A stretch of DNA of 64,000 bases from Phyto melanocephala (taxonomy: Eukaryota; Arthropoda; Insecta; Diptera; Rhinophoridae). The translations under genes and the position numbers were made by a program. Within the stretch, counting starts at the first letter, position 1, and every line of letters starts with the position of its first letter. The stretch is from the NCBI GenBank assembly GCA_941918925.1, contig OW799233.1, positions 73,272,578-73,336,577 of the forward strand. Direction: 5' to 3'. Shown one piece after another: positions 2,263 through 63,973 of this stretch. Under the pieces are notes generated by a model. That model searched no databases. It had not been told where the DNA came from and saw nothing but the letters and a program-made list of their open reading frames with translations.

Positions 2263-2689
2263 TTATTTTTACCATTATTGCAGAGTTTGGTGCCCTATTA
2301 TTCCTATCGGCGTTATTTTTAGAAAAAATTTACTTCGACGAGTTAACACGTTAGTTTTCTAGCGATTGATACCAGCATCGTAGTTCTAGCTGGTACTGTT
2401 ACGATTTTATTGGCAAAAAAAACCCTTTAAAATATAAAAATTATTTATTATTTTTACCATTAAAGCAGAGTGTGGTGCTCTATAATTCTTGTTGGCGTTA
2501 TTTTTAGAAAAAAATTTACTTCAACAAGTTAACACGTTAGTTTTCTAGCGATTGGTACCAGTCTCATAGTTCTAGCTGGTACTGTTACGATTTTATTGGC
2601 AAAAAAAACCCCTTAAAATATTAAAATATTTTATTGTTTTTACCATTAATGCAGAGTTTGGTGCCCTATAATTCCTATCGACGTTATTT

Positions 2690-4330: not shown

Positions 4331-4839
4331 TTTCTAGCGATTGGTACCAGCTTCGTAGTTCTAGCTGGTACTGTTACGATTTGATTGGCAAAAAAACCCC
4401 TTAAAATATAAAAATATTTTATTGTTTTTACCATTAATGCAGAGTTTGGTGCCCTATAATTCCTGTTGGCGTTATTTAGAGAAAAAAATTTAATTCGGCG
4501 AGTTAGCACGTTAGTTTTCTAGCGATTGGTATCAGTCTCATAGTTCTAGCTGGTACGGTTACGATTTTATTGGCAAAAAAAAACCCTTAAAATATTAAAA
4601 TATTTTATTATTGTTACCATTACTGCAGAGTTTGGTGCCCTATAATTCCTGTCGGCGTTATTTTAAGAAAGAAACTTACTTCGACGAGTTAGCACGTTAG
4701 TTTTCTAGCGATTGGTACCAGCATCGTAGTTCTAGCGGGTACTGTTACGATTTTATTGGCAAAAAAAAACCCTTAAAATATTAAAATGTTTTATTGTTTT
4801 TAACACTAATGCAGAGTTTGGAACCCTATATTTCCTATC

Positions 4840-16100: not shown

Positions 16101-16139
16101 GGTATTGTTACGATTTTATTGGCAAAAAAAACCCTTTAA

Positions 16140-17440
16140 AATATTGAAATATTTTATTATTTTTACCATTAATGCAAAGTTTGGTGCCCTATAATTCCTA
16201 TCGACGTTATTTAGAGAAAAAAAATTTAATTCGCCGAATTAACACCTTAGTTTTCTAGCGATTGGTACCAGCATCGTAGTTCTAGCTGGTATTGTTACGA
16301 TTTTATTGGCAAAAAAACCCTTTAAAATATTGAAATATTTTATTATTTTTACCATTAATGCATAGTTTGGTGCCCTATAATTCCTGTCGATGTTATTTAG
16401 AGAAAAAAGATTTAATTCGCCGAATTAACACCTTAGTTTTCTAGCGATTGGTAGCAGCATCGTAGTTCTAGCTGGTATTGTTACGATTTTATTGGCAAAA
16501 AAAACCCTTTAAAATATTAAAATATTTTATTATTTTTACCATTAATGCAGAGTTTGGTGCCCTATAATTCCTATCGACGCTATTTAGAGAAAAATAATTA
16601 ATTCTTTGAATTAACACCTTAGTTTTCTAGCGATTGGTACCAGCATCGTAGTTCTAGCTGGTATTGTTACGATTTTATTGGCAAAAAAAACCCTTTAAAA
16701 TATTAAAATATTTTATTATTTTTACCATTAATGCAAAGTTTGGTGCCCTATAATTCCTATCGATGTTATTTAGAGAAAAAAAAATTTAATTCGCCGAATT
16801 AACACCTTAGTTTTCTAGCGATTGGTAGCAGCATCGTAGTTCTAGCTGGTATTGTTACGATTTTATTGGCAAAAAAACCCTTTAAAATATTAAAATATTT
16901 TATTATTTTTACCATTAATGCATAGTTTGGTGCCCTATAATTCCTGTCGATGTTATTTAGAGAAAAAAGATTTAATTCGCCGAATTAACACCTTAGTTTT
17001 CTAGCGATTGGTAGCAGCATCGTAGTTCTAGCTGGTATTGTTACGATTTTATTGGCAAAAAAAACCCTTTAAAATATTAAAATATTTTATTATTTTTACC
17101 ATTAATGCAGAGTTTGGTGCCCTATAATTCCTATCGACGCTATTTAGAGAAAAATAATTAATTCTTTGAATTAACACCTTAGTTTTCTAGCGATTGGTAC
17201 CAGCATCGTAGTTCTAGCTGGTATTGTTACGATTTTATTGGCAAAAAAACCCTTTAAAATATTAAAATATTTTATTATTTTTACCATTAGTGCAGAGTTT
17301 GGTGCCCTATAATTCTTGTCGGCGTTATTTTTAGAAAAAAATATACTTCGACAAGTTAACACGTTAGTTTTCTAGCGATTGGTACCAGTCTCATAGTTCT
17401 AGCTGGTATTGTTTCGATTTTATTTTCAAAAAACCCCTTA
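16140..17440. repeat. Satellite sub-block with 560-bp period (3 monomers)
   Basis: The unusual junction ATTCTTTGAATTAACACC occurs at 16601 and again at 17161, exactly 560 bp apart, with the three intervening monomers matching closely, including a GGTAGCAGC variant. This is a third kind of unit directly left of the LINE insertion. Confidence 0.7.
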
Positions 17441-17481
17441 AAATATTAAAATATATTATTGTTTTTACCATTAATGCAAAG

Positions 17482-17517
17482 TCATTCTCGCGTTGACTCT
17501 TCAAGAGTACGGACGTG
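17482..17517 (+). promoter_or_regulatory. LINE internal promoter: Inr + DPE
   Basis: TCATTC at 17482-17487 is a full match to the insect initiator TCA(+1)KTY. With A+1 at 17484, GGACGTG at 17511-17517 starts at +28, exactly where the downstream promoter element (RGWCGTG) sits in Drosophila Jockey-type elements. TATA-less internal promoters of this form let LINEs carry their own promoter to a new site. Its position directly at the satellite junction also fixes the 5' end of the element. Confidence 0.85.

Positions 17518-21946: not shown

Positions 21947-21979
<33 letters not shown>
21931..21979 (+). terminator. LINE polyadenylation signal and poly(A) tail
   Basis: AATAAA at 21931-21936 is followed 10 nt later by 33 A residues (21947-21979), after which satellite sequence resumes with GTTTGGTGCCC. 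This is the normal 3' end of a target-primed LINE insertion and fixes the strand as plus. Confidence 0.9.
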
Positions 21980-21983
<4 letters not shown>

Positions 21984-24900
21984 GGTGCCCTATAATTCCT
22001 ATCGACGTTATTTAGAGAAAAAATTTACTTCGACGAGTTAACACGTTAGTTTTCTAGCGATTGGTACCAGCATCGTAGTTTTAGCTGGTACTGTTACGAT
22101 TTTATTGCCAAAAAAAACCCCTTAAAATATTAAAGTATTTTATTGTTTTTACCATTAATGCAGAGTTTGGTGCCCTATAATTCCTATCGACGCTATTTAG
22201 AGAAAAATAATTAATTCGCCGAATTAACACCTTAGTTTTCTAGCGATTGGTACCAGCGTCGTAGTTCTAGCTGGTATTGTTACGATTTTATTGGCAAAAA
22301 AACCCTTTAAAATATTAAAATATTTTATTATTTTTACCATTAATGCATAGTTTGGTGCCCTATAATTCCTATCGATGTTATTTAGAGAAAAAAAATTTAA
22401 TTCGCCGAATTAACACCTTAGTTTTCTAGCGATTGGTAGCAGCATCGTAGTTTTAGCTGGTATTGTTACGATTTTATTGGCAAAAAAACCCTTTAAAATA
22501 TTAAAATATTTTATTATTTTTACCATTAATGCATAGTTTGGTGCCCTATAATTCCTGTCGACGTAATTTAGAAAAAAAAAATTAATTTGACGAGTTAACA
22601 GGTTAACTTTCTAGCTATTGGGACCAGTTTCATAGTTTTAGCTGGTACTGTTTCGATTTTATTGGCAAAAAAAGCCCTTAAAATATTAAAATATTTTAAT
22701 ATTTTTACCATTAAAGCAGAGTTTGGTGCCCTATAATTCTTGTCGGCGTTATTTTTAGAAAAAAATTTACTTCGACAAGTTAACACGTTAGTTTTCTAGC
22801 GATTGGTACCAGTTTCATAGTTTTAGCTGGTATTGTTACGATTTTATTGGCAAAAAAACCCTTTAAAATATTAAAATATTTTATTATTTTTACCATTAAT
22901 GCATAGTTTGGTGCCCTATAATTCCTATCGATGTTATTTAGAGAAAAAAAATTTAATTCGCCGAATTAACACCTTAGTTTTCTAGCGATTGGTAGCAGCA
23001 TCGTAGTTCTAGCTGGTATTGTTACGATTTTATTGGCAAAAAAACCCTTTAAAATATTAAAATATTTTATTATTTTTACCATTAATGCATAGTTTGGTGC
23101 CCTATAATTCCTGTCGACGTAATTTAGAAAAAAAAAATTAATTTGACGAGTTAACAGGTTAACTTTCTAGCTATTGGGACCAGTTTCATAGTTTTAGCTG
23201 GTACTGTTTCGATTTTATTGGCAAAAAAAGCCCTTAAAATATTAAAATATTTTATTATTTTTATCACGTTAGCTTTCTAGCTATTGGTACCAGTTTCATA
23301 GTTTTAGCTGGTACTGTTTCGATTTGATTGTCAAAAAAAGCCCTTAAAATATTAAAATATTTTAATATTTTTACCATTAAAGCAGAGTTTGGTGCCCTAT
23401 AATTCTTGTCGGCGTTATTTTTAGAAAAAAATTTACTTCGACAAGTTAACACGTTAGTTTTCTAGCGATTGGTACCAGTTTCATAGTTTTAGCTGGTACT
23501 GTTTCGATTTGATTGTCAAAAAAAGCCCTTAAAATATTAAAATATTTTATTATTTTTACCATTAAAGCAGAGTTTGGTGCCATATAATTCTTGTCGGCGT
23601 TATTTTTAGAAAAAAATTTACTTCGACAAGTTAACACCTTAGTTTTCTAGCGATTGGTACCAGCATCGTAGTTCTAGCTGGTATTGTTACGATTTTATTG
23701 GCAAAAAACCCTTTAAAATATTAAAATATTTTATTATTTTTACCATTAAAGCAGAGTTTGGTGCCATATAATTCTTGTCGGCGTTATTTTTAGAAAAAAA
23801 TTTACTTCGACAAGTTAACACGTTAGTTTTCTAGCGATTGGTACCAGTTTCATAGTTTTAGCTGGTACTGTTTCGATTTGATTGTCAAAAAAAGCCCTTA
23901 AAATATTAAAATATTTTATTATTTTTACCATTAAAGCAGAGTTTGGTGCCATATAATTCTTGTCGGCGTTATTTTTAGAAAAAAATTTACTTCGACAAGT
24001 TAACACCTTAGTTTTCTAGCGATTGGTACCAGCATCGTAGTTCTAGCTGGTATTGTTACGATTTTATTAGCAAAAAAACCCTTTAAAATATTAAAATATT
24101 TTATTATTTTTACCATTAATGCATAGTTTGGTGCCCTATAATTCCTATCGACGTTATTTAGAGAAAAAAAAATTTAGTTCGCCGAATTAACACCTTAGTT
24201 TTCTAGCGATTGGTACCAGCATCGTAGCTCTAGCTGGTACTGTTACGATTTAATTGGCAAAAAAACCCCTTAAAATATTAAAATATTTTATTGTTTTTAC
24301 CACTAATGCAGAGTTTGGAACCCTATATTTCCTATCGACGTTATTTAGAGAAAAAAAATTTAATTCGCCGAATTAACACCTTAGTTTTCTAGCGATTGGT
24401 AGCAGCATCGTAGTTCTAGCTGGTATTGTTACGATTTTATTGGCAAAAAAACCCTTTAAAATATTTTATTATTTTTACCATTAATGCATAGTTTGGTGCC
24501 CTATAATTCCTATCGACGTTATTTAGAGAAAAAAAATGTAATTCGCCGAATTAACACCTTAGTTTTCTAGCGATTGGTAGCAGCATCGTAGTTCTAGCTG
24601 GTATTGTTACGATTTTATTGGCAAAAAAACCCTTTAAAATATTAAAATATTTTATTATTTTTACCATTAATGCATAGTTTGGTGCCCTATAATTCCTGTC
24701 GACGTAATTTAGAAAAAAAAAATAATTTGACGAGTTAACACGTTAGCTTTCTAGCTATTGGGACCAGTTTCATAGTTTTAGCTGGTACTGTTTCGATTTT
24801 ATTGGCAAAAAAAGCCCTTAAAATATTAAAATATTTTATTATTTTTATCACGTTAGCTTTCTAGCTATTGGAACCAGTTTCATAGTTTTAGCTGGTACTG

Positions 24901-27900
24901 TTTCGATTTGATTGTCAAAAAAAGCCCTTAAAATATTAAAATATTTTATTATTTTTACAATTAATGCAGAGTTTGGTGCCCTATAATTCCTGTCGACGTT
25001 ATTTAGAGAAAAAAAAATTAATTCGACGAGTTAGCACGTTAGTTTTTTAGAGATTGGTACCAGCTTCGTAGTTCTAGCTGGTATTGTTTCGATTTTATTG
25101 GCAAAAAACCCCCTTAAAATATTAAAATATATTATTATTTTTACCATTATTGCAGAGTTTGGTGCCCTATTATTCCTGTCGGCGTTATTTTTATAAAAAA
25201 AATTTACTTCGACGAGTTAACACGTTAGTTTTCTAGCGATTGGTACCAGCATCGTAGTTCTAGCGGGTACTGTTACGATTTTATTGGCAAAAAAGACTTT
25301 TTAAAATATAAAAATATTTTATTATTTTTACCATTAAAGCAGAGTTTGGTGCCTATAATTCTTGTCGGCGTTATTTTTAGAAAAAAATTTACTTCGACAA
25401 GTTAACACGTTAGTTTTCTAGCGATTGGTACCAGTCCCATAGTTCTAGCTGGTACTCTTACGATTTTATTGGCAAAAAAAAAAAAACCCTTAAAATATTA
25501 AAATATTTTATTGTTTTTACCATTAATGCAAAGTTCGGTGCCCTATAATTCCTATCGACGTTATTTAGAGAAAAAAATTTAATTCGCCGAATTAACACCT
25601 TAGTTTTCTAGCGATTGGTACCAGCATCGTAGTTCTAGCTGGTATTGTTACGATTTTATTGGCAAAAAAACCCTTTAAAATATTAAAATATTTTATTTTT
25701 TTTACCATTAATGCAAAGTTTGGTGCCCTATATTTCCTATCGACGTTATTTAGAGAAAAAAAATTTAATTCGCCGAATTGACACCTTAGTTTTCTAGCGA
25801 TTGGTACCAGCATCGTAGTTCTAGCTGGTACTGTTACGATTTTATTGGCAAAAAAACCCTTTAAAATATTAAAATATTTTATTATTTTTACCATTAATGC
25901 AAATTTTGGTGCCCTATAATTCCTATCGACGTTATTTAGAGAAAAAAAATTTAATTCGCCGAATTAACACCTTAGTTTTCTAGCGATTGGTACCAGCATC
26001 GTAGTTCAAGCTGGTATTGTTACGATTTTATTGGCAAAAAAACCCTTTAAAATATTAAAATATTTTATTTTTTTTACCATTAATGCAAAGTTTGGTGCCC
26101 TATATTTCCTATCGACGTTATTTAGAGAAAAAAAATTTAATTCGCCGAATTAACACCTTAGTTTTCTAGCGATTGGTACCAGCTTTGTAGTTCTAGCTGG
26201 TATTGTTACGATTTTATTGGCAAAAAAAACCCTTTAAAATTAAAAAATATTTTATTATTTTTACCATTAGTGCAGAGTTTGGTGCCCTATAATTCCTGTC
26301 GGCGTTATTTTTAAAAAAAATTTACTTCGACAAGTTAACGCGTTAGTTTTCTAGCGATTGGTACCAGCATCGTAGCTCTAGCTGGTATTGTTACGATTTT
26401 ATTGGCAAAAAAAAAAACCCTTAAAGCATTAAAATATTTTATTGTTTTTACCACTAATGCAGAGTTTGGAACCCTATATTTCCTATCGACGTTATTTAGA
26501 GAAAAAAAATTTAATTCGCCGTATTAACACCTTAGTTTTCTAGCGATTGGTACCAGCTTTGTAGTTCTAGCTGGTATTGTTACGATTTTATTGGCAAAAA
26601 AACCCTTTAAAATATACAAATATTTTATTATTTTTACCATTAGTGCAGAGTTTGGTGCCCTATAATTCCTGTCGGCGTTATTTTTAAAAAAAATTTACTT
26701 CGACGAGTTAACACGTTAGTTTTCTAGCGATTGGTACCAGCATCGTAGTTCAAGCTGGTATTGTTACGATTTTATTGGCAAAAAAACACTTTAAAATATT
26801 TAAATATTTTATTATTTTTACCATTAATGCAGAGTTTGGTGCCCTATAATTCCTGTCGACGTTATTTAGAGAGAAAAAATTTAATTCGCCGAACTAACAC
26901 TTTAGTTTTCTAGCGATTGGTATTAGCATCGTAGTTCTAGCTGGTATTGTTACGATTTTATTGGCAAAAAAACCCTTTAAAATATTAAAATATTTTATTA
27001 TTTTTACCATTGATGCAAAGTTTGGTGCCCTATAATTCCTATCGACGTTATTTAGAGAAAAAAAAATTTAATTCGCCGAATTAACACCTTAGTTTTCTAG
27101 CGATTGGTACCAGCATCGTAGTTCTAGCTGGTATTGTTACGATTTTATTGGCAAAAAAACCCTTTAAAATATTAAAATATTTTATTATTTTTACCATTAA
27201 TGCAGAGTTTGGTGCCCTATAATTCCTGTCGGCGTTATCTGAGGAAAAAAAAAATTTATTTGACGAGTTAACACGTTAGTTTCCTAGCGATTTGTACCCG
27301 TCTCATAGTTCTAGCTGGTATTGTTTCGATTTTATTGGCAAAAAAAAACCCTTAAAATATTTTATTATTTTTACCATTAATGCATAGTTTGGTGCCCTAT
27401 AATTCCTGTCGACGTAATTTAGAAAAAAAAAATTAATTCGGCGAGTTAACACGTTAGCTTTCTAGCTATTGGGACCAGTTTCATAGTTTTAGCTGGTACT
27501 ATTTCGATTTTATTGGCAAAAAAACCCTTAAAATATTAAAATATTTTATTATTGTTACCATTAATGCAGAGTTTGGTGCCCTAAAATTCCTGTCGACGTT
27601 ATTTAAATTAAAGAAAATTAATTCGACGAGTTAGCACGTTAGTTTTCTAGCGATTGGTACCAGCTTTGTAGTTCTAGCTGGTATTTTTACGATTTTATTG
27701 GCTAAAAAACCCTTTAAAATATAAAAATATTTTATTATTTTTACCATTAGTGCAGAGTTTGGTGCCCTATAATTCTTGTCGGCGTTATTTTTAGAAAAAA
27801 ATATACTTCGACAAGTTAACACGTTAGTTTTCTAGCTATTGGTACCAGTCTCATAGTTCTAGCTGGTACTGTTACGATTTTAATGGCAAAAAAAAACCCT

Positions 27901-27978
27901 TAAAATATTAAAATATTTTATTGTTTTTACCATTAATGCAGAGTTTGGTGCCCTATAATTCCTGTCGGCGTTATTTTT
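21980..27978. repeat. ~186-bp satellite array, right block
   Basis: Continuation of the same array after the LINE. It contains more divergent monomers, including a type with TTCTAGCTATTGG[G/T]ACCAGTTTCATAG and AAAAAAAGCCC (around 22590-24010 and 24740-24960) that is absent from the left block. Some monomers are truncated (about 23260-23290 and 24840-24850, where TTTTTATCACGTTAGC joins two monomers). A ~370-bp unit repeats between 23450 and 24010. The array ends abruptly at 27978, within a monomer, where a mini-me-like copy begins. Confidence 0.95.
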
Positions 27979-28301: not shown

Positions 28302-28534
28302 CAACATACATACATACATACATACATACATACATAGATACATACATACATACATACATACATACATACATACATACATACATACATACATACATACATA
28401 CATACATACATACATACATACATACATACATACATACATACATACATACATACATACATACATACATACATACATACATACATACATACATACATACATA
28501 CATACATACATACATACATACATACATACATACA

Positions 28535-28568
<34 letters not shown>

Positions 28569-28697
28569 CATACATACATACATACATACATACATACATA
28601 CATACATACATACATACATACATACATACATACATACATACATACATACATACATACATACATACATACATACATACATACATACATACATACATAC
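28302..28697. repeat. (ACAT)n microsatellite, ~98 repeats
   Basis: Near-perfect tetranucleotide array with a few point changes (GATA near 28335, TATA near 28563). It occupies the place where other copies of the same element have only two to four ACAT units. All long ORFs over it (Tyr-Ile-His or Met-Tyr-Val-Cys periodic peptides) are by-products of the repeat. Confidence 0.98.
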
Positions 28698-29339
28698 AAA
28701 CATGCATACATACATGTAAAAAACATTAAAAAGAAAAATTACAAAAGGAAAAAATATTAAAAATAAAAAAAAATAATAAAAAATATTACAAAAAAAAAAA
28801 TTTTTACATAATTACAACAACAACGTACATACATGTAAAAAACATAAAAAAAAAATACAGAAAGAAATAATATTAAAAATAAAAAAAAAATAATAAAAAA
28901 ATTACAAAAAACTAATTTTAAAAAAATTAAAAAAAAAATATTAAAAAAATAATAATAAAATTAAAATAATATATTATATAAAATAAAATTTGTTTGGCTC
29001 AGCTGAGATTCGATGCCACATTTATTCTAACCAGTATCAGTGATGGTATTTGAGAATTTCAGTCTTGTGCCTAAATTTTAGCTAGAAAGTGACAAAATAT
29101 ATTAAAAAGTGCCATAACAAATATATACACACATGTCTATTTAAAAAAGCTAAATGCATTTATTCAGTTTTTTTATTAAATTTTTTATTAAGACGAATTG
29201 TTTATATACATACATACAAAAAAAATTTCAGACTTCAATATTTAAAAAATTTATACAGATAATTTATATATAAATATTATTATTTATTAAATACATAATT
29301 ATGTATGTATTTAATAAGTAATTTTTTGAGAATGAGAAA

Positions 29340-42960: not shown

Positions 42961-45691
42961 ATGTCATGTACCAATTTAGAATTGTTGGAGTTTTTCAGAA
43001 ACTCAGATAATGAAAATGCATTTAAATTGGCTAATGTGGAAAAACTATACGGTTTACCAGGATACCACGAAATGGATGTTCAGCGCTAAATTCACTTCGT
43101 TTTCCTAACAATTAAAAAAATGGCTTGCCTCATACCGTACGAAAAAAGCATTTACGAGAAACAACCCAGGAAAAGGGGAGGACTTGCAAAACCTATAATG
43201 AAGTGTTCTGAGCAGAGAAGCAAGCCGATTGCAAAATTTCGGCGGCGGCTTAAAAGCAAAAATCTTCGGCGGCGGCGCTAATCGGCTCTGCGCCGAGACT
43301 TTTATAGACTGAAAAAAATATTTGGCTAAGCCGAATTTTTAGTATTATTATTTTTTTTTAACAATTTAATAAAAAATATTTAATTTTGTCGAAAAAGTCA
43401 AAAATATCACAAAAAATCGAAATAAGCAATATAATTGTAAAACGATTATTTGAAAACATTGCGAAAGTACCCTATGATTTCGCAGAACTACATGTTACAT
43501 TAGCGTGTCATTTTTGAATATATTAATGAACGCCATTTCAGTTTTATAAGTGCATATAAATCACTCCTATTTGGTAAAAAGAAACCAATGTTTCATAAGT
43601 TGAAGATGTTTGTTTACATTATTCCTTTAAGATATTTCACATATTTTATTCATTTTGAATTACTTCATTAATGATAAATTATTTTACATTATTTTACAAA
43701 AAAGCAATTTAATAATTCTTAAAAATTTCATACAATTAAACAGTTATTGATATTACCAAATATCTGTAATCGAAAAAAGCAGAAAACTGTAAAAAAAACT
43801 AGTTGGATGTCGAATAAATAAATCAAAAGTAAGCATAAGCATATAGTTTTTAGCAAGGCATATTATTTCAATAAGTGAAGAACAAAATAATCAGCTGACG
43901 AAACAAGACTACCTGTTGATTAAATGTGCCTTGGTTTTTAGTTTTTATCAAAACTAATTTTGTGAGAAGTTTGACAATAATATTCCGATATATTTTTTGC
44001 AGTGACCTATGATTCATTTCTAAAAGAAGAAAAAATCAAATTTCAAGTATGTAAAATCGGCTTCAAACTGAGTCGCCGGTCAGCCGAATGCATCGGCGGC
44101 GGCGAGAATTAAATAAAAAAACCGACTAAGCGGCTAGCCGCCAGCCGCGGCGATACGGCTTGCTTCTCTGGTTCTGAGTACAAAAGAAAACGTAAACTCG
44201 AAAATGCCAAAAAAGATATATCTATATTGCATCTTTCAGAAGCATTATTTCTTAAGTTTATGAAAGATAAAGATTAATCAAGGTCCGACATTACAAAAGC
44301 AATGTCAACCAGTTCGACTACAAAGAATCAAAGGGAGTATTCCTACTCCATCAAATTCTTTACCCACAAAGTATAATACAGAAGAAGCCTTAGCATTGTT
44401 TATGGAATTTGGATAATCAAAGGAAAAATATTCTACTTTACGAAGCTCTATAAAGAGTCATAATGTGAATATTCTTCCTGAATACAAAAAGATTACATCT
44501 GCCAGAAAAGAAGCAGTGCCACTTAATGTAAAGGTTACTGAAGTATCAGTAGAGGTAAAACTGCAAAACTTCACGGATCATACAGCCGAACGCCTGAAGA
44601 TGAAGGAGTATCACTTCCAGATAAGCTTGCATTGATAAATAAGTGGGGATGTGATGGATCATCCGGTCAAAGTGCTTACAAACAAACAATATCGAAAAAT
44701 GACACACCTATTACAGATACAAATATGTTTATGGCTTCTGTAGTTCCTTTACGACTGAGAAGTGAAATCGCTGAGCATTGGAAAAATCCTCGCCCATCAT
44801 CAGAGGCCCTATGCTCCTTATAGGAACGACGGGAACATATATATATATCATCAGTTCATGTTTGCAATCCGATATTTTTCAATATGCAAAGGAGTCTTCA
44901 GAAATAATCAAATCTACAGTGAACGATATAAAAAAGCAAATTTCGGAATTAAAGCTTTCTGTTATTGAAATTAAGAATGAAAAAAGTGTTTCGATTGATT
45001 ATGAATTTCTTCTTACAATGATTGATGACATATAATAACAGATACCTCGTCAACTTTAAAGTGTGCAACTTGCAAAAAGTCACAGAAAGACTTTCAAAAT
45101 TTTTATGACTCAAGTGATGAGCAAAATTATGAATGTGGAATTTCTCAATTACATACCAGAATTAGGTGCATGGAGTTTATTTTAAAACTAGCGTATTTAA
45201 TTTGGCGTGAAGGTCAATGTTTTGATATGAACGCAAAACAAAAAGAAAAACTATCTGCTCGAAAAAAAATTATACAAAATGAATTTCATAAGAAGCTTGG
45301 GCTGAAAGTAGACTGCCCAAAGCAGGGGTATGGAAATACTAGCGATGGTAATATGTCCAGAGCATTTTTTTTAAATGATGAGGTAACAGCCCGAATTACT
45401 AGAGTCGACAATAATATTATAAAAAGGTTGGCAGTTATGCTAAATGTTATAAACTCTAGAGAAATGGTAAATGGACCAAAGTTTGATAATTATGCATCAA
45501 AAACTGCCCAACTTTTAGCTCAAATGTGCCCTGAGAAGAAACTTACTCCTACGGCTTATAAGATTTTCGCTCATGGTAAAAGTTTAATTGAATATCAATG
45601 CTTACCGATTGGAGAGTTGTTAGAAGAAGTCCAAGAATGCAAAAACAAGGAATACAAAAAATTTAGATACACGAATACTTGCAAAATTTGA
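42961..45691 (+). pseudogene. Transib transposase (RAG1 core-like), disrupted
   Basis: Reads in pieces across frames. MSCTNLELLEFFRNS... (from 42961, stops after 42 codons) is the likely N-terminus. Coding texture resumes after the hAT MITE. INKWGCDGSSGQSAYKQ at 44635 carries the first catalytic Asp (CDG; Asp codon 44653-44655). LLTMIDD near 45010 carries the second Asp, followed by a CATC motif. The C-terminal block (45170-45691) includes KQGYGNTSDGNMSRAFF, typical of Transib, and ELLEEVQECKNKEYKKFR near 45620, whose Glu corresponds to RAG1 Glu962. At least two frameshifts, internal stops and a 958-bp insertion make it inactive. Family assignment is from motif order. Confidence 0.8.
43213..44170. 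mobile_element. hAT-like MITE inserted in Transib transposase
   Basis: Perfect 15-bp terminal inverted repeats (CAGAGAAGCAAGCCG) and an exact 8-bp target duplication GTTCTGAG (43205-43212 and 44171-44178). 958 bp, with GGCGGCGGC-rich subterminal regions that are strikingly GC-rich for this window and an AT-rich centre. No transposase. Confidence 0.93.
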
Positions 45692-47949: not shown

Positions 47950-48639
47950 ATACTTTGCAAACGTAAAAAAGTTTTTACTATGACAGAAATTATATTTATT
48001 ATTTTGTTGAGTTTCAACTATAAAAAGTGTTACTTCTTCGTCGTTTTTATGCTTCACACGACGAATTTACACAACGAATTTTTATCGACGAATTTGTCGT
48101 GTTGGGCAAAAGTCATTCATTTAACACATTTTGATCGTTAACTACATTGAGCTGGTAAAGCCTTTTTTTATATCAATATTGTGATGTTTAAAGGGAACAA
48201 AGCCTTCTCTAATATATTTAACTCATATGTTCGCCTTTTTATGAAGGACGCTATCTTTGATTTTTAATTTCATAGCTCGTTGTATTTAAATACTCAAGGC
48301 CTTTTTTGATATCCATATTGACTCTCTCGGGTGTATTAAAACTAAAAAATTTCGATTTCTGTTTATAAATTTTAGGAAAAACAAATATCCCAGTTTATTT
48401 TAAAGCGATTTGTTAGTTTTTTTTTAGAAAAAAAATTGATATTACGGCTTATAATTTGGTGATATAAATGAAAGATAATAACAAACAAAAGTAAAAGGGT
48501 TGCTGTTTGGTTAAAAATTTCAATCTAACTCATTGTGGTAAAATATATGAAAAAGGAAAAAACTAAAAGTAGTTACCGAATTCAATTAACTTAAGTCCCG
48601 TGAGTTAAATAGATGATATTTACAACCAACATGTAACCA
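47950..48639. other. Unassigned AT-rich region
   Basis: No gene seen. Around 48055-48105 the pentamer-like phrase CGACGAATTT recurs three times, with one inverted, a weak local hairpin. The segment leads into a hammerhead sequence at 48640 and may be the upstream part of the element that carries it. Confidence 0.4.
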
Positions 48640-48708
48640 CCGATCAGAGAGTGCTGATGATGAAATCGTGACTAGTTTCGAAAATGCATTTCACTCGGCT
48701 AGTGTCGG
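48640..48708 (+). ncRNA. Hammerhead ribozyme, family 1, isolated copy
   Basis: Stem I outer CCGAT/GTCGG, inner GAGTG (48649-48653), core CTGATGA (48654-48660), an extra T, stem II GAAAT/GTTTC with one wobble, core GAA (48680-48682), stem III AATGCATT, cleavage base T (48691), then CACTC closing stem I. All conserved core bases are present. The downstream sequence differs from the tandem element at 54486, so this is a diverged relative. Confidence 0.7.
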
Positions 48709-48829
48709 GTAAAATATAATTTTTCAAGATTTATTCTTTCATTTATCACAATTAAAAAATTCTTTGTAAAAATAAAAAATGTTTAATATGAATTTAAGCC
48801 TGATTAAAAATTTAAAAATATTAAAAAAT

Positions 48830-49942: not shown

Positions 49943-50640
49943 GCTAAACTAAAAACGATACAAATTAAATTAAAAAAGCATTGTAATTTGCACAAAAAAT
50001 AAGTTTACAGGTGTCTGGCCTTTTTTTGAATTTTCAACACCTAAGGGGAAAAAACGGGTAAAAACTGTAATTTGGTACTTTTTTGTTGCCTTATGTAATT
50101 TCCAAACACATATAGCTAGGAAAAAAATTTAAACTGTTTTAAGTAGTTCGTGAAAAAATAATAATAAGAATTCTGCACTTTTTTCAAATTCGCATGTATA
50201 AAGGGGAAAAAATGTCCCTTTTTTTGGTACTTTTTTTAAAACAAACTTTCCTTATATTAATCAATGGGACAAAATTTGACAATTATTATTTCCTAATAGA
50301 ATATGAACAAATATTTAGGTGAAATTTTTGGAATCCTTTTTGGGGACAAAAAAGGTACCAAAAAGGGGAAAATTCCGGAAAATGTACTTAATTCCTAATT
50401 TGACGGCCAATTTTCACAAAATTTATAATTGGGATTTCACCAGACATAAAAAATTATGTAATTTAGTAAAAAATTGAAACACATTCATAACAGGGTAGAA
50501 AGGGGAAAAATCGGGTAAAGAGTTTGGTACTTTTTAGAACATAAATACTTTTTTTACTTACTTTAAATCATGTCTTTAAAAATATTTTGTTACATAGATA
50601 TTTGAACATTTTAAACTTGGAGCTTGGAACTTGGACCAAA

Positions 50641-51590
50641 TATGTACTTTTTTTGCAATTCTATGGTACTTTTTGTATTTTCTACGTTTTTAAAGGTAGA
50701 ATTGTAAAATAAAGGACCATTGATACAAGGTAAGACTAAAAATGTTATGAGCGACCAAAAAGGTACTTTTTTGAATTTCTATGGTACTCTTTGTGTTTCA
50801 ACGTGTGCGAGGCTAGAATTTTGAAATTAGTGACTATTGATACAAGGTGAGACTTAAAATGTTATGGGCGACCAAATAGGTACTTTTTTGATTTTTAATG
50901 GTACTTTTTATATTTTCTACGTTTATGAAAATAGGATTGTACAATCAAGGACTATTGATTCCAGGTGAGACTAAAAATGTTATTAGCAACCAAAAAGGTA
51001 CTTTTTTGAATTTTTATGGTACTTTTTGTATTTTCAACGTTTGCGAAGCAAGAATTTGGAAAATAGTGACTATTGATACGAGGTGAGACTGAAAATTTGA
51101 TGGTCGACCAAAAAGGTACTTTTTTGAATTTTTGTTGTACTTTTGGTACTTTCTACATTTATAAAGGTAGGATTGTACAATCGAGGACTATTGATTCCAG
51201 GTGAGACTAAAAATATTATGGGTAACCCAAAAGGTACTTTTTTGAATTTTTATGCTACTTTTTTGAATTTTCTACGTTTTCGAAGCTAGAATTTTGAAAT
51301 TAGTGACTATTGATACAAGGCGGAACTAAAAATGTTATGGGCGACCAAGAAGGTACTTCTTTGAATTTTTATGTTACTTTTTGTATTTTCAACCTTTGCG
51401 AAGCTAGAGTTTCGAAAATAGTGACTATTGATACGAGGTGGGACTAAAAATGTTATCGGCGACCAAGAAGGTACTTTTCTGAATTTTAATGGGACTTTTT
51501 GTATTTTCTACGTTTATAAAGCTAAAATTGTGAAATAAAGGATTATTGATTCATGTTGAGAATTAAAATAATATTGGAGACACAAAAAAA
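50641..51590. repeat. ~118-bp minisatellite inside the Helitron (8 units)
   Basis: GGTACTTTTTTGAATTT recurs at about 117-118 bp spacing (50762, 50879, 50997, 51115 and onward), each unit also holding TACGTTT, GGACTATTGAT and AGGTGAGACTAAAAATGTTAT. Two unit types alternate (CTACGTTTATAAAG versus CAACGTTTGCGAAG), so the true period may be a ~235-bp dimer. Confidence 0.85.
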
Positions 51591-52029
51591 AAACCTTTTC
51601 GCATTTTTATTGTACTTTTGGTATTTTTACATTTGTGAATCCAAATGTAACTCCTAATACTATAGCCGACCAAAAAATTACTTTTTCTCATTTTTTTTTT
51701 TATATTTTGTATACATAGAATTCTGAATGTAGATAATAATAAACCAATTGGAAGTTTTAGTGAAGGCAAAAATGTTACTTTTATAATTTTTAGGGTCATT
51801 ATTGCAAATTATGAATCTTAATTTTTGAAACTCAGTAGCATTGATCTTGATTTTAGTTAGGAAATATATCCGATATATCCTTACTTTACTTTTTATTTTT
51901 CGAAGTAAATTGAATCAGAGATACAAATTTTCATAAATTGAACCAAAAATATTTAATAATTATAAATAGAACTTGAGTATTCAATAAATAATAAAAACTG
52001 CGCTATCGAAGTAGCGGGTTAAATGCTAG

Positions 52030-53874: not shown

Positions 53875-54472
53875 TTCGAAAGTCGCCAACAAAAATGAGG
53901 TTTTGCAAAATATGTTATAAAAGAAAAAGGAAAAGAACTAAAACCTTTTCTAGACTGCAAAACAAGATGGAACACACTTTTTGATATGTACTAACGATTT
54001 CGTGAGCTGGAAATACCAATTAAAAAAGCGTATAGATTTTAAATTACCTCATATGAGTTATAACGAATTTGCTCTATTTAAACAATTAATTGTTATTTTA
54101 AACCCAGTAAAGGAAACACTTGAAGCCCTTTGCCGCAGTGGTATGAATCTATATAAAGCCGATGCTGTCCTCTTATTTATGCTCAAAGAAATTTCTAAAA
54201 TCGATTGCAAATTAAGTGATGAATTGGGAAAAGCTCTTCATAAAAGAATACAAGAAAGAAGAAGAACTTACTCAACGCTTTTAAACTTTTTAAAGAATCC
54301 GAAATTAAAATATGATTTTGATAAAAATTTTGAAATGTGTCGTATTAGAAATGAATTAAGAATGTTAATCTCCCAATTTCAAAGTAGTTAAACTTCCAGC
54401 AGTTTGTCTGCAAAAAATTCTGATTCGCTATTCAAAGATAATACTTTCGAATCAAATTTTTCTATAGTAAAA
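53875..54472 (+). pseudogene. hAT transposase, N-terminal/core part (first piece)
   Basis: VANKNEVLQNML, KEKGKELKPFLDCKTRWNTL and then (one frameshift) RFRELEIPIKKRI give the conserved D-x-KTRW-N region of hAT transposases. An open frame at 53981-54391 continues with LFKQLIVILNPVKETLEALC, LYKADAVLLFMLKEI and LHKRIQERRRTYSTLLNFL, typical of the ribonuclease-H-like core and its helical insertion in ZBED/hobo-type enzymes. The N-terminal BED finger is not visible. The gene resumes at 56250 after an inserted element. Confidence 0.8.
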
Positions 54473-54485: not shown

Positions 54486-54936
54486 GCGATCGAGATGTGC
54501 AAAAGTCCTACAAAAGCTAAAAATATGAAAAGTTATAACATGTATACTTATAATTATATATTTTATATTTTATTCGAACTTTTTTACTATATATTAAATT
54601 TTCAATGTGAACCATTTTTTATTTTGGCTTAAGTTCATTTATTCTTTCATTTTTAATTTTATAATTCAAATTTAATTAAATTGTAACCATTTTTAGGAAT
54701 ATTCTTTCTAAAATTATTATTATTATTACAATATCCATCCTTTGGCTGGAATTTTTGAAAGCATAACGAAAATGTATTACGAATATAAAAGAATATGAAC
54801 ATGTTGAATTATGAATTGTCATTTGATAGGTGAAATTAAATATTCAACAAAATATGAAAATTAATACTAGGATTCACTAATTCAAATTTCATTGAATTGT
54901 AACATAAATAGGAATTTTAAGTTACATAGTAGTATA

Positions 54937-55004
54937 CCGATAAAGAGTGCTGATGATGAAATCGTAGCTGATTTCGAAAATGCATTCCACTCGGCTAATA
55001 TCGG
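54937..55004 (+). ncRNA. Hammerhead ribozyme, unit 1 (core intact)
   Basis: Outer stem I CCGATA/TATCGG; internal loop AA opposite GGCTAA; inner stem I GAGTG/CACTC; core CTGATGA at 54950-54956; extra T; stem II GAAATC/GATTTC with loop GTAGCT; core GAA 54976-54978; stem III AATGCATT (a palindrome); H17 = C at 54987. Predicted cut between 54987 and 54988. A stem III of only two pairs in the monomer is usual for retrozyme hammerheads, which work best as dimers through the palindrome. The stem I internal loop and stem II loop are placed for the usual tertiary contact. Confidence 0.85.
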
Positions 55005-55484
55005 AAATAATTTTAGAAAGAATATTCCTAAAAATTATTACAATTTAATTAAATTTGAATTATAAAATAAAAAATGAAAGAATAAATGAACTTAAGCCAA
55101 AATAAAAAATGGTTCACATTGAAAATTTAATATATAGTAAAAAATTTCGAATAAAACATAAAATATATAATTATAACACACATGGCACGGTGTTAATGGC
55201 ATTCAAGAATTCATTGTTCAGTGTCTATTACCTAGATGGACTTACATAAATGAAAATGTAAATACAACCTTGCTTTCAATAATTCCAGCCAAACGATGGA
55301 TATTGAAAGCATAACGAAAATGTATTACGAATATAAAAGAATATGAACATGTTGAATTATGAATTGTCATTTGATAGGTGAAATTAAATATTCAACAAAA
55401 TATGAAAATTAATACTAGGATTCACTAATTCAAATTTCATTGAATTGTAACATAAATAGGAATTTTAAGTTACATAGTAGTATA

Positions 55485-55552
55485 CCGATAAAGAGTGCTG
55501 ATGATGAAATCGTAGCTGATTTCGAAAGTGCATTCCACTCGGCTAATATCGG
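55485..55552 (+). ncRNA. Hammerhead ribozyme, unit 2 (core intact, stem III changed)
   Basis: Same as unit 1 exactly 548 bp on, except AGTGCATT in place of AATGCATT, which keeps the A15.1-U16.1 pair but turns the second stem III pair into a G-T wobble and breaks the palindrome. Predicted cut between 55535 and 55536. Together with unit 1 this would free a 548-nt RNA. Confidence 0.8.
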
Positions 55553-56032
55553 AAATAATTTTAGAAAGAATATTCCTAAAAATTATTACAATTTAATTAA
55601 ATTTGAATTATAAAATAAAAAATGAAAGAATAAATGAACTTAAGCCAAAATAAAAAATGGTTCACATTGAAAATTTAATATATAGTAAAAAATTTCGAAT
55701 AAAACATAAAATATATAATTATAACACACATGGTACGGTGTTAATGGCATTCAAGAATTCATTGTTCAGTGTCTATTACCTAGATGGACTTACATAAATG
55801 AAAATGTAAGTACAACCTTGCTTTCAATAATTCCAGCCAAAGGATGGATATTGAAAGCATAACGAAAATGTATTACGAATATAAAAGAATATGAACATGT
55901 TGAATTATGAATTGTCATTTGATAGGTGAAATTAAATATTCAACAAAATATGAAAATTAATACTAAGATTCACTAATTCAAATTTCATTGAATTGTAACA
56001 TAAATAGGAATTTTAAGTTACATAGTAGTATA

Positions 56033-56100
56033 CCGATAAAGACTGCTGATAATGAAATCGTAGCTGATTTCGAAAATGCATTCCACTCGGCTAATATCGA
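56033..56100 (+). ncRNA. Hammerhead ribozyme, unit 3 (decayed)
   Basis: Core CTGATGA has become CTGATAA (G8 lost), inner stem I GAGTG has become GACTG without compensation in CACTC, and outer TATCGG is TATCGA. G8 is catalytic in hammerheads, so this copy should be inactive. Confidence 0.8.
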
Positions 56101-56249
56101 AAATAATTTTAGAAAGAATATCCCTAAAAATGGTTACAATTTAATTAAATTTGAATTATAAGATTAAAGAATAAATGAACTTAAGCCAAAATAAAAAATG
56201 GTTCACATTAAAAATTTAATATGTATACTTATATTGAAAATTAAATAGA

Positions 56250-56456
56250 TCTTTTTATTTCTGGGGGCAAGAGAGTAGTGTATCTGCAGACTGCATATAA
56301 CAACTTATTAACTATATTACCTATGTAAATATAAGCGTTGAGTGTGAACGCTGTTTTTCAAAAGCTGCATATATAGGTAACAAAATCAGATCAAAACTTT
56401 GTAATGAAATTTTAAATGCTTTAACTTTTCTAAAACACTTTTTATCAAAAGTTAGT
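56250..56456 (+). pseudogene. hAT transposase, C-terminal dimerisation domain (second piece)
   Basis: After the second 13-bp duplication the hAT frame resumes: RSFYFWGQ-like residues, then VNISVECERCFSKAAYIGNK, IRSKLCNEILNALTFLKHFL and a stop near 56456. SVECERCFS followed by R-S-x-L and L-x-FLK is the hallmark of the hAT C-terminal dimerisation domain. The missing link to the first piece is exactly the inserted ribozyme element. Confidence 0.82.
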
Positions 56457-58265: not shown

Positions 58266-58591
58266 AATTGTTTTATTGTTATAATTATAAATTGGTATTT
58301 ATTCGATTTTTGTTTTTGAAATCTTACATTTTTTGTAAATTATTTTTATTTTGGCATAAGTTCATTTTTCTATTATTAAACTTCCTAAAACATTTATTAA
58401 ATTAAATTGTAATCATTTAAGAATATTGAAAATTTATTTCGATGTTAGCCGAGTGAAATGCATTTTCGAAATCAGTTTCGATTTCATCATCATCACTATT
58501 TATCGATGTAATTACATACAGATGTAATTTTTTAAACTAATATTCATGTTACAACTTAATGAAATTAGATAACGGAAGCATAGCATTTATT
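58266..58591 (-). mobile_element. Relative of the ribozyme element, inverted fragment
   Basis: In reverse orientation this follows the 548-bp unit: GGCATAAGTTCATTTTTC, AAATTAAATTGTAATCATTT, AAGAATATT and then a hammerhead-like sequence. It is about as diverged as an old copy. The segment 59400-59500 (ATTCTTAAATGATTACAATT and ATAAATGTTTTAGAAAGT) is the same sequence in the opposite direction, so copy A10 lies between two inverted arms of the element, like the inverted head at 54540. Confidence 0.6.
58440..58505 (-). ncRNA. Hammerhead-like sequence, family 1, decayed
   Basis: Minus strand: ATCGATA...TAGTGATGATGATGAAATC, loop GAAACT, GATTTC, GAA, AATGCATT, T, CACTC, GGCTAACATCG. C3 of the core has become A and inner stem I is weakened (TAGTG against CACTC). 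Stem II and stem III are intact. Probably inactive. Confidence 0.7.
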
Positions 58592-59364
58592 TTACGCTTC
58601 ACCTGTGGTGCACAAGGGTATATATAGCTTTGTCATTCCGTTTGTAATTTCTACAATTTTCATTTCCGACCCCATAAAGTATATATTTTCTGAAAGCTTA
58701 TGAATAGAGGAGTCGATTAAGCCCTGACCGTCTGTCCGTCTGTCCGTCTGACCGTCTGTCCGTGTGTATGTTGAAATCAACTTTTTGAAGCCCCCCGACA
58801 TAGGTTGGACCCGGGTAAGGTATTAAAATATCAGAAATATTCGGGAGTAGATCGGTATTGAAAATCAGAAACATCGGTACATAAACAACTGAGATATGAG
58901 CAAAAACCCACGACCACCTCGATTTTCTTTTCATAAAAACAACATTACAACAACAACATACATACATACAAACGTGTATACTGGTTAGAGAAAACGTGGC
59001 ATCGAATCCCAGCTGAGGCAAAAAAATTTTTTTTTAAATTTTTTTAAAATTTTTTTTTTTAATTTTTTTTTATTTTTTTTTTATTTTTTATTTAATATAT
59101 TTTATATTTTTTTATTATTATTTTTTTTTATTTTTTTTTTTTTAATTTTTTTTTTATTTTTTTTTTGTTTTATATATATTATATATGTATATAATAATTT
59201 TTTTTTTTTTAATTTTTTTTTTAAATTTTTTTTTTTTAAATTTTTTTTTTATTTTTTTTTTTGTTTTTTTTAACATACATACGTGAATTTACTGTTATTG
59301 CATGACTACACGTTGTGAAGGGTATATAAGATTCGGCACGGCCGAATATAGCGCTTTTACTTGT
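58592..59364 (+). mobile_element. mini-me/DINE-like element, copy A10
   Basis: Starts TTTACGCTTCACCTGTGG (one change from the usual ACCCTTCACC), has (GTCY)n at about 58727-58763, GGCATCGAATCCCAGC near 58997, a T-rich middle, and ends with GATTCGGCACGGCCGAAT and CTTTTACTTGTTT. It combines the left end of the CTGTGGTGCAC subtype with the body of the A5/A8 subtype, suggesting recombination between subtypes. Confidence 0.83.
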
Positions 59365-60248: not shown

Positions 60249-62627
60249 ATGGGAAAGGATCCCTTACTTTCTCAAACTGGAGGACGACCTCCTAATAATT
60301 CTGGAAAAACATTATTAGCTGTTAAAAAGAAGACATTGGCTATTTCCAAAGGCTCAAATGTTGTAGCGAATTCAAATCATCCTAATGCTCAACCTAATGT
60401 ACAGAGTGTAAATAAGCCAGAGGCAAAAGAAACTGCTGTCAGAAATTCACAGTTTGGTCAACAACTTCGTGATGCTGCTTTTGATAAACAGTCTCTACTA
60501 ACGCAAGCAAAAGGAGATTTAGAAGAATCGTTTGTATCTGTAAATAGCAACGTCAAAGTTTTGGAAAACATAAAAATACCAATTCGATCAGAGGAACAAA
60601 TTGAAACCTGTTCGGACCATGAGCGATTGTCAATTTCATCAATGTCGAATTTCAAACTGTCAAAAACAAAAAACGAACATTTCAAGGTGACGTAAAAATT
60701 GATTTGGCTAATTGTCAATTTAAAAAATTAAATAAGTTGGTTGATAATGTAAATAGAACAAATAAGTAGTCTGTATTAGGTGACTTAAATGTAGAGGCCG
60801 AAAAGCCCATTAATTCCACAAATTTAGATTGTAGTAATTCAGGATTTATTGATAATACTTCTATTGTAAAAAACATAAATCCTTATTGCCCTCCTATATT
60901 TCTTGAAAATGTAAATATTAAATCTTTAATTGACCAGCTAAATTCCAAAAACGTAGAATTTAAAATTAAGAATCAGGGTAAATACAAGAGCAAACTGTAC
61001 TTCAAAGACTCTTCTGCACATTCAGAAATGATGGAGCTTTTAAGGGAAAAGGAAATTCCTTCTTATACATACACTCCCAAGGAGTTTAAACGTCAGAGCA
61101 TTGTTTGTAGAGGTTTGTATTATAAATCTGATATCAATGATATTAAATCGGAAATTGACATAATTGTCCCAGACACAGTTGACTCTATTTCAAAGTTTTC
61201 GACGGAATATTCTAGAAAAAAGGCATTGACACAGGTTTATTCTTACTAACCCTCAAACCGAATCGTAAAGCAAATGAGTTGCTTGGCGTAAAATGTATCC
61301 TTAGACAGGTAGTGACATGGGAACGGCCAAAGACTAATACGAAAGTTCCACAGTGTTGGAGATGCCAAAGGTGGGGTCATTATTCTAAAAATTGTAGTCG
61401 CCCTTTTTCATGTGTAAAATGTCATGAAAAGCATGCCCCAGGTGAATGTGCTATTGTCCCTGAGAATAATATATTACCGTTCTGCGTTAACTGCAATGAG
61501 AGTGGTCATACATCAAACTATAGGGGGTTTCCTGCATATAAGAAATACGTTTCTTAAGGTGAATTCACCCATTTGTTCTGAACAAAATTTTTTCCGGAGA
61601 ATAACATTTTTTACTGAGAGTTTTCTGCAGAACGATTCACCCATTTAAGAAAATTTGTCCGAAAAAACAAAGCTGCCATATAATATAAAATGCAAACAGT
61701 TGTACAAAGTGGAAGCACCGCTAGCAAACTATGTAAATAAATACAAACGTAAATTATTTCATTAAAATATATGTGAAGAAAATGTCGGATAGAAGAAAAC
61801 TAAAATTATTATTTTTAATTGAAGTGCATAAAGTCAATTTGTTTGCAAAAGAAATTTATAAAAAAAAATCGAAAATAAAAAGAGTCGCTTCTATTTCATT
61901 CCATAAACCCTGTTTTAAATAATTATTTTTGTATGCACTATTGCTCATGTCATACAAACATTTTCTTCTTGGTTTTTTAATTCTTCTATTAATTTTTGAG
62001 CAATATTTTCATTAAATTCCATTTTAATTGTTAATTTTCGGCAAAAACAATTTTTGTATAATAAATGTACTGACACTGTGTGATGTGGCAACCAAATTCA
62101 ATTTTCATGTAAATATTGAAAAATAGTGGCATCCCAATTCAGTTTCTTCTGAACAAGAATTAAAATTAAACCAATTCAAGAAAAATCTTTCTGAACAAAA
62201 TAATCTCTTTCTCTCTCAAAAGTAAAACATCAAACTCAATACAAAAAAAATTTGTTCTGAACTAAAATTTTATGGGTGAATCCAGCTTTATAGAAGAAAA
62301 TCTTATGAGGAAGTAAAATCTAGGAAAGTAACAGCAACAGCTAATGTTAAAATGGCTCTCAAACCATCTAATCGTATTTCCAAAAATAAATCTTTTGCCA
62401 GTTTATTAAATGGTTTGACTGAAGTTCCTCTACAAAAGAGGCACGAAAAACCAACTTTGATTCGGGAATTTATGGAAATCGCTAAAGAAGTTTGTGGTCC
62501 GGAGTCTTTGACGCTAGAGGATAAAATTACTAATTTTATAAAAAATTACAAGTCTATTACAAGAGATCAAGCCCGAAAGGAATGCTGGAGTTTAATTAAG
62601 GAAATTCAAGATGTCTATGGTCCGTAA
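60249..62627 (+). pseudogene. LINE 2 ORF1, gag-like, frameshifted and split
   Basis: Frame from MGKDPLLSQTGGRPPNN (60249; an upstream ATG at 60234 is also possible) to 60695, then a frameshift. Next, NPYCPPIFLENVNIKSLIDQ, KYKSKLYFKDSSAHSEM and EIPSYTYTPKEFKRQSIVCR form the PRE_C2HC region; another frameshift near 61240. Zinc knuckles at 61360-61530: CWRCQRWGHYSKNC, CVKCHEKHAPGEC and CVNCNESGHTSNYRGF (the last Cys replaced by Phe). After the Harbinger-like insertion (61557-62287) the C-terminus reads RRKSYEEVKSRK...MALKPSNRISKNKSF and ends ...EIQDVYGP at 62627. Confidence 0.8.
61557..62287 (-). mobile_element. PIF/Harbinger-like non-autonomous element, copy 2
   Basis: 731 bp, reverse orientation relative to copy 1 at 903-1632 and almost identical to it. 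Ends AGGTGAATTCACCC and (inverted) AGCTGGATTCACCC; TTA duplications at 61554-61556 and 62288-62290. The MADF-gene remnant lies on the minus strand at about 61880-62022. The insertion splits ORF1 of LINE 2. Confidence 0.88.
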
Positions 62628-63973
62628 TTCTCTAAATTTATTAACTTTTAATGTTGGTTCTCTTGTCAATATAGGAAGAAAAATTGAGCTAAATACGATA
62701 TTAAATAAATTTAACATTGAAATTGCTTTTTTACAAAAAAATGCATCTACCCTTAAACGCAAATGTGTATTTTGACGACTATACAGTTCTAAGGGACGAA
62801 AGTCAATTAGGTATAGATGTAGCGGTTAAAAACTTTATTTCCTTTTCAAAAGTATGCACTCCAAATCTTCGTTTTCAAAATTTATTTATTGTAATAAACG
62901 TTTCGTTAAATGGTAGCAGTAAGAAAATTCTTTGTGGTTCAATTTATTTTCCAAGTAACTGCAATCGTCAAATTATACATAGTGGTATGTCTTTCATTTT
63001 GAGTTTTTCAAACAGTTATGATGGGTTGATATTAGGTGGGGATTTGAATGCAAAGCACTCTTCTTGGGGTGATATAAGCAACAACTTTAATGGCGAAATT
63101 CTCTAAAATTGGGTTCAGGATGAATCCATTTCAGTTACTCGTATATGTGATTCACATCCCACCTACCCAGGCGAATGCTCTCATTTAGACCATTTTATAG
63201 TAAGCAATAATTTTATTGAAAATTCCGTTCCAAATTTCGGATCATCTTCCTTTAGGTCTTCATATTTAATTATTAGATTTTAACTTTATTTTCAAAATTT
63301 CTAACCATTTTGTGTCTTTCAAAGGCACAGATTAGAACACATTCAAAATTGACGTTAGTAATACCCTATTAAATCATTTCCTCCGGATAATAGAAATTTA
63401 TCAAATAGAGAAATAGATTGTTTTATAGAAGAATTTAATACCACAATAAATTTTATGACTAAAATTCATTCCACAAAATTTATAAGGAAAAATGAAAAAT
63501 ATATTGTTTCTGATAAAGTGAAAAATTTACTTCGTTTCAAATATAACTGGCAGAAAGATTTAAAAAGGATATTTAAAAGGACTCTTAATAGAAAACATCC
63601 TGAATACTTGCTAATTTCAAAGCAAATTGATTTAATTAAAATAATTATAAAGGAGCCAATTGAGTTAGAGCCTGGACCAATGGCTTATAAACGAATTTTT
63701 AAGATCATTGGAAATGCGAATCGATCTAGTGTTAAAGATATATCCGTTAACGGTGTAAAAATTACAGATGTGAATCACAAATTAGATATTTTAAAAGATC
63801 AGTTTTCCTCTGTTTATCAGTGTTCTCCACCTAATAGAAATGTTTCACAAGTTAATGAAGCCATCCATGAAACAATTTCACTACTCTCAAATCAACTAAC
63901 ATACAATGGCAATACGACTTCATTAAACAACCAGGGTAATTTAAAGTTTAAGCAATCTTTTGGAAATTTCTAG
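62611..63973 (+). pseudogene. LINE 2 ORF2, endonuclease and linker to reverse transcriptase
   Basis: Starts MSMVRNSLNLLTFNVGSLVN (Asn of the APE active site) and reaches IAFLQ before a frameshift near 62740. The next open piece (62717-63106) has LILGGDLNAKHSSWGD (catalytic Asp-Asn). After a stop come NWVQDESISVTRIC and SHPTYP...SHLDHFIVSNN. The SDH motif is disturbed near 63240. 63455-63973 is open (TKIHSTKFIRKNEKYIVSDK and following), the helical region before the reverse transcriptase. The polymerase itself lies outside the window. Damaged in at least four places. Confidence 0.78.

Follow-up and report, generated by a model that had tools for sequence, protein, structure and literature searches.

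Animal retrozymes are described in the available passages of PMC7229834 as tandem non-LTR units with type I hammerhead ribozymes, insects being among their hosts, and Penelope-like elements (PLEs) are proposed there as their helpers; those of PMC7761336 likewise name PLEs as likely retrozyme helpers. The helper role has been put forward in print because retrozymes and PLEs co-occur in genomes. A purified Anolis PLE initiates at two adjacent internal sites, which accounts for an optional tail of 30-40 bp, and insertion persists when its hammerhead is mutated (PMC11167929). For Adineta PLEs, the accessible portion of PMC3846280 gives a 31-bp tail that is optional at one inverted pseudo-LTR (pLTR) and duplications of 8-10 bp.

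The window, the 64,000-nt stretch of Phyto melanocephala DNA analyzed here, carries a short array of a 548-bp element in which each unit has a hammerhead motif. The original prediction held that such a fly element may be undescribed; with animal type I retrozymes, insects included, already in print (PMC7229834, available passages), it is not an unknown kind of system. The tandem array it recognized was correct, and its account of the element's extent was incomplete, having overlooked both a target-site duplication of 13 bp and, at 54548-54763, a partial unit in inverted orientation. The insertion extends from about 54553 to 56220 with the duplication ATGTATACTTATA on both sides, and the order after the inverted stretch is unit 316-548, 1-548, 1-548 and 1-149. 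The features are as follows.

42970..43042, plus strand: decayed relative (22.2 bits, E 0.00087)
48639..48710, plus strand: hammerhead of a diverged relative, intact core
54540..54552, strand not given: left target-site duplication ATGTATACTTATA
54548..54718, minus strand: inverted arm, unit 19-189, outer end at start site b
54720..54763, minus strand: remainder of the inverted arm, unit 284-327, at the head-to-head junction
54755..54987, plus strand: partial unit 316-548
54936..55006, plus strand: hammerhead 1 including the outer helix, intact core, predicted cut 54987/54988
54988..55535, plus strand: full 548-bp unit 1
55136..55173, plus strand: tail, the unit 1 segment that separates the two reverse-transcription start sites inferred near unit 149 and unit 186
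55484..55554, plus strand: hammerhead 2, intact core, predicted cut 55535/55536
55536..56083, plus strand: full 548-bp unit 2, sharing 98.7% identity with unit 1
56032..56102, plus strand: hammerhead 3, mutated in stem I and core, predicted inactive
56084..56225, plus strand: partial unit 1-149, outer end at start site a, the final few bases overlapping the duplication
56221..56233, strand not given: right target-site duplication ATGTATACTTATA
58437..58507, minus strand: hammerhead of a diverged relative (58277-58593), core C3 mutated

The array seems to have inserted into a hAT relic: the frame at 56328-56456 beside it matches the hAT dimerization domain (transposase C-terminus) at E 0.0066, which is under the Pfam cut-off, and a Pfam search with the upstream frame at 53954-54388 gave no match. 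The window has other repeats as well. Long stretches at 2260-17482 and 21979-27976 consist of tandem repeats of roughly 186 bp, together with longer-period variants (about 72 copies of the 186-bp period in 4141-17482), an (ACAT)n microsatellite of 103 copies lies at 28304-28715, and a GGTACTTTTT-rich 118-bp tandem array of 8.5 copies at 50634-51634. The frames at 61216-63103 read as a LINE-like relic, with a weak zinc knuckle (61216-61554) and an endonuclease-reverse-transcriptase match, PF14529 (62705-63103).

The hammerhead motifs lie at 54950, 55498 and 56046, in exact 548-bp steps, and two of the three cores are intact, the third unit having a G to C change in stem I and a G to A change in the core; on spacing and cores alike the original prediction was right. 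GAGTG and CACTC make up stem I, GAAATC and GATTTC stem II and AATGCATT stem III, together with C17, and a single unpaired T separates CTGATGA from stem II. An outer helix, CCGATA/TATCGG, is present as had been claimed along with the type I parts, and the predicted cuts at 54987/54988 and 55535/55536 are consistent with the motif. By sequence, units 1 and 2 possess both core boxes (CUGANGA and GAAA), an open stem I among their three stems and an H17 other than G. We regard the motif as a putative type I hammerhead ribozyme that is predicted to cleave. A strict type I descriptor, composed only after the motif was known, finds three sites in the window (48654, 54950 and 55498) and any match at all in one of 200 dinucleotide shuffles. 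The original prediction had proposed scoring with Rfam and counted the lack of a model hit among the observations that together would speak against it, and this one was made: the Rfam 15 hammerhead models gave no match at the gathering score, nor at E<=10 on segments of 2001 and 91 bases, other Rfam families giving weak matches that were mostly to C/D snoRNAs (best E 0.4). Folded to minimum energy, all three 72-nt window segments adopt a structure other than the hammerhead, with stem II retained in each. Given these two results, the case for a hammerhead is built on anatomy, conservation and chance controls.

Across loci L009-L044 and the window, the core motif CTGATGA..GAAA is kept in 85 of 97 hammerhead segments, 46 of them identical (5 short hits were dropped from the count). 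Among 25 units, one per locus and picked for their likeness to the window unit, pairwise differences average 0.029 within the hammerhead vs 0.065 elsewhere; out of 548 circular windows the hammerhead is the 23rd least diverse, and the least diverse of all begins at unit 159, over start site b. In 45 sequences, the outer helix has three pairs that are changed on both sides (two of the 47 distinct hammerheads, truncated by a junction, were excluded from alignment A3), and at least three arise in 7 of 500 shuffles. A control slid by +1 has 5 double changes vs 3, but only 29.5% of its cells pair, vs 95.5% in the unslid register. Stems I-III carry one-sided changes and no double changes in the same 45 sequences. 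A search of viral contigs with the hammerhead pattern found nothing.

The element is a high-copy dispersed retroelement. In the whole genome (739,753,867 bases in 9 contigs) there are 7,249 sites within 3 mismatches of a 37-nt core, of which 3,642 are on the forward strand and 3,607 on the reverse strand; the reversed control of that core has none. The 100 exact motifs listed, all on C1, include 15 head-to-head and 0 tail-to-tail neighbors within 2.5 kb, and their same-strand spacing is 543-546 in 28 of 37 cases. Fifty full units measure 526-553 bp, and a single insertion can hold up to 13 of them. No reverse transcriptase or GIY-YIG ORF is present in the unit, the longest stop-to-stop frame in 58 unit dimers being 66 aa. 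Both the mobility of the element and its lack of coding capacity agree with what had been predicted. Nothing observed suggests a host function.

Insertion scars were mapped as 53 outer 3' ends on a 543-nt consensus (36 loci and the window stretch, counting L033, whose flanks are those of L031, and both L027 and L030, which share a flank). Site a (138-145) and site b (174-190) each receive 20 and the other 13 fall elsewhere, so that two sites about 38 nt apart take up 40 of the 53; some of the 13 coincide with the start of another repeat. Outer 5' ends are scattered, and many copies are single-armed with a ragged 5' end. In head-to-head insertions the 3' ends face outward and the inner 5' junction is variable. 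Where both outer ends of such an insertion lie at a site, the arms end on opposite sites in 13 of 14 cases (L009, L010, L014, L018, L020, L022, L031, the window, L047, L046 with L077, L079, L080 and L081), and the sole same-site pair, L035, is a/a. L046 with L077, and L047, are longer versions of L011 and L015, which were at first truncated at their ends, and L033 is excluded from the 14. L079, L080 and L081 came from a separate genome search and were fetched after the opposite-site rule had been seen; a fourth member of that set, L078, ends at site a on one side and at 42 on the other, and it stands outside the 14 with L013, L028, L039 and L044, in which one or both outer ends are off the sites. 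As a separate observation, the same other repeat, GTAAGAGCACTATATTCGGC, abuts the element at a near-identical unit position in L013 (near 4549) and L044 (near 1533).

The flanks of 13 insertions share 13.7 nt on average (range 8-19), that is, target-site duplications of more than 4 bp, with individual lengths approximate because the compared flanks include 12 nt of element. For comparison, 156 mismatched flank pairs share a mean of 7.2 and a maximum of 12, with 8 pairs sharing at least 10, a range that takes in the 8-nt duplications of L022 and L031.

PLEs reside in the same genome. A GIY-YIG profile at E<=10 gives 122 matches among 126 scored candidates, with many frames near 848 aa that recur in tandem every 3,050 bp or so and also stand head-to-head, as at C3:6154517-6167111. 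At E<=0.001 one match is left, a frame beside MED31 that we take to be Slx1. In L072, a 615-aa stretch has RVT_1 at E 6e-10 and a GIY-YIG match just below its cut-off. A minimal hammerhead without stem III sits between two PLE frames and reads TTTCC CTGAAGA A GCTACC..GGTAGC GAAATATC GGAA. It was first spotted by eye and then searched by descriptor, which finds it 26 times in 22 of 29 PLE loci (including L072 2217-2265), these loci being a sample of the 122 GIY-YIG matches with about 1.5 kb on either side; the Rfam hammerhead models gave no match in the four PLE loci tried. Six of the 26 continue into the frame and the other 20 have mapped ends, at reference positions 65-72 (7), 99-113 (9, including L061, which by eye is closer to the 65-72 group) and elsewhere (4, at 40, 46, 80 and 80), so that two sites again account for most ends (16 of 20). 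Four PLE loci have hits on both strands, and every one of them is a head-to-head pair with opposite sites, the duplications measuring 13, 13, 13 and 15 bp. The PLEs and the 548-bp element therefore leave the same scar, since end sites, arm orientation, opposite sites and duplication length agree. The kinship with PLEs and retrozymes suggested in the original prediction is supported.

A sequence likeness accompanies the shared scar. Unit 81-195 aligns to the PLE start region (TGAnCTTAAGC .. AATAAA .. AAAAAGnTCGAAnAAA) in two PLE families, each scored in two ways: z is 3.9 and 4.9 in one family, 3.5 and 5.4 in the second, and no more than 2 of 500 shuffles score as high. No other unit window tried does as well, and within L060 it aligns best at the start region. 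The likeness, noticed before it was tested, is modest; another L060 window scores 36.5 vs 44.5, and in the alignment with the second PLE family the tail motif, AAAAAGnTCGAA, is not superposed. Start-region folds in the window are no better than those of shuffles.

We conclude that the 548-bp element is very probably a non-autonomous, ORF-less retrotransposon of the animal-retrozyme type, mobilized in trans by the PLEs of the same genome. The observations behind this conclusion are the element's structure, its end sites and duplications, the matching signature of the resident PLEs and the start-region likeness. Several results run against it: the 13 ends off both sites and the a/a pair, the two 8-nt duplications within the chance range, the Rfam and folding results, covariation that is confined to the outer helix and exceeded in double changes by the slid control, and a start-region likeness that is modest, post hoc and, in the second PLE family, not superposed at the tail motif.

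A rival reading is that the unit is the pLTR of an autonomous PLE family unseen here, its copies being ORF-deleted or solo pLTR remains. In its favor, unit 81-195 resembles the PLE start region, solo pLTRs are described in PLEs (PMC3846280, accessible portion), and our survey took in 29 of the 122 GIY-YIG matches with about 1.5 kb per side. However, model R1, built for the unit's hammerhead, finds only one of 28 PLE loci at E<1 (L064; L056 was excluded from the search) besides a weak hit in L054 (E 0.71), and blastn over the 29 PLE loci identifies L064 829-1136 as a separate element copy inserted next to a broken PLE frame. The PLE hammerhead also has no 8-nt stem III. Of 39 element loci plus the window, just two (L025 and L037) show matches to PLE proteins, both outside the mapped element, and numerous tandem units are without an ORF. 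We therefore consider a pLTR origin possible but unlikely. Weak blastn matches to the unit also occur in PLE loci L049 (2-149, E 5e-15) and L074 (918-1048, E 3e-7).

For a retrozyme moved by PLEs, the following sequence of events may be envisaged. Arrays would be transcribed into multi-unit RNA, in which the hammerheads could cut once per unit. The PLE reverse transcriptase/GIY-YIG endonuclease, acting in trans, would cut AT-rich DNA, and copying would begin inside the RNA at either of two adjacent sites, about 145 or 185 nt downstream of the ribozyme cut. Both target strands would usually be primed, one from each site, and the outcome would be two arms with 3' ends outward and 5' ends meeting at a variable junction, with about 13 bp of target duplicated. 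In behavior the element would be a PLE passenger, yet we do not class it as a PLE because an ORF was tested for and is absent.

The units within single insertions bear on the RNA that is copied. In L046, with 13 full units, the minor state is found in at least two units at 11 of 12 variable columns, and its haplotypes recur in both arms in differing order; in L013, with 5 units, 537-nt and 544-nt types recur, likewise in different order in the two arms. Differences in L019, L021, L030 and L038 are mostly private. The original prediction envisaged a 548-nt RNA suited to circularization, and the same element could have as the template of each array one such monomer circle copied repeatedly. Circle copying fits head-to-tail arrays that differ freely in unit number yet share a fixed 3' start, and animal retrozymes make circles (PMC7229834, available passages), but the mixed haplotypes of L046 and L013 mean that one monomer circle alone is insufficient as template, and the purified PLE uses uncut RNA and inserts when its ribozyme is mutated (PMC11167929). 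We think a single circle an improbable template. Mixed haplotypes can result if a mixed array is transcribed into multi-unit RNA, if several RNAs are used, or if gene conversion follows later. We lean, somewhat cautiously, towards a retrozyme that has its own PLE two-site start module, which would be direct genomic evidence for PLE mobilization, and whose arrays arise from a mixed multi-unit RNA pool instead of one monomer circle, the ribozyme thus serving a step other than template making.

Two further readings were dropped. An ordinary satellite, with a hammerhead shape due to chance or to the UGAUGA/CUGA boxes of a C/D snoRNA-like RNA, would suit the snoRNA character of the weak Rfam matches, but the short dispersed arrays with duplications, the 85 of 97 intact cores, the lower diversity of the hammerhead and the single descriptor match in 200 shuffles make it very improbable. 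The long inverted arms and target-site duplications could suggest a DNA transposon of the foldback or terminal-inverted-repeat kind that contains tandem repeats. This too is very improbable, with arms of differing length that end at two different sites, variable inner junctions, many one-armed copies with ragged 5' ends and up to 13 full units per insertion.

Insertion scars now add support to a helper role so far proposed from co-occurrence. With both partners in one genome, there is a concrete pair of donor and helper for tests, and insertions with mixed haplotypes inform on the nature of the RNA template. Among the titles and abstracts searched, with most subscription journals out of reach, none describes a retrozyme with PLE-type ends.

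Among known systems, the pDo500 satellite of Dolichopoda cave crickets is similar: it too is an insect repeat, about 500 bp long, whose hammerhead is better conserved than the remainder of the unit; in the passages available it is described as satellite DNA, and insertion ends or a PLE link do not figure in them (PMC2837043). With Penelope/Poseidon PLEs (Frangieh 2024, PMC11167929; Arkhipova 2013, PMC3846280, as far as the accessible portions go) the element shares the tandem and inverted layout, the hammerhead, a 30-40 nt tail between two start sites and target-site duplications. Unlike PLEs it has no reverse transcriptase/endonuclease ORF in its unit, and its hammerhead has an 8-nt palindromic stem III vs AUAU in the resident PLEs. 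The element further resembles metazoan non-LTR retrozymes (Cervera and de la Pena 2020, PMC7229834, available passages), which are likewise ORF-less tandem units with one type I hammerhead each and low G+C, found in insects among other hosts and in genomes that also hold PLEs. The unit here is longer (543-548 nt vs about 150-450 nt) and has one extra nucleotide before stem II, and it shows PLE-type end sites and inverted arms, whereas that description, in its available passages, is without them. What the present family adds to published work is the tail signature, here borne by a hammerhead element that has no ORF.
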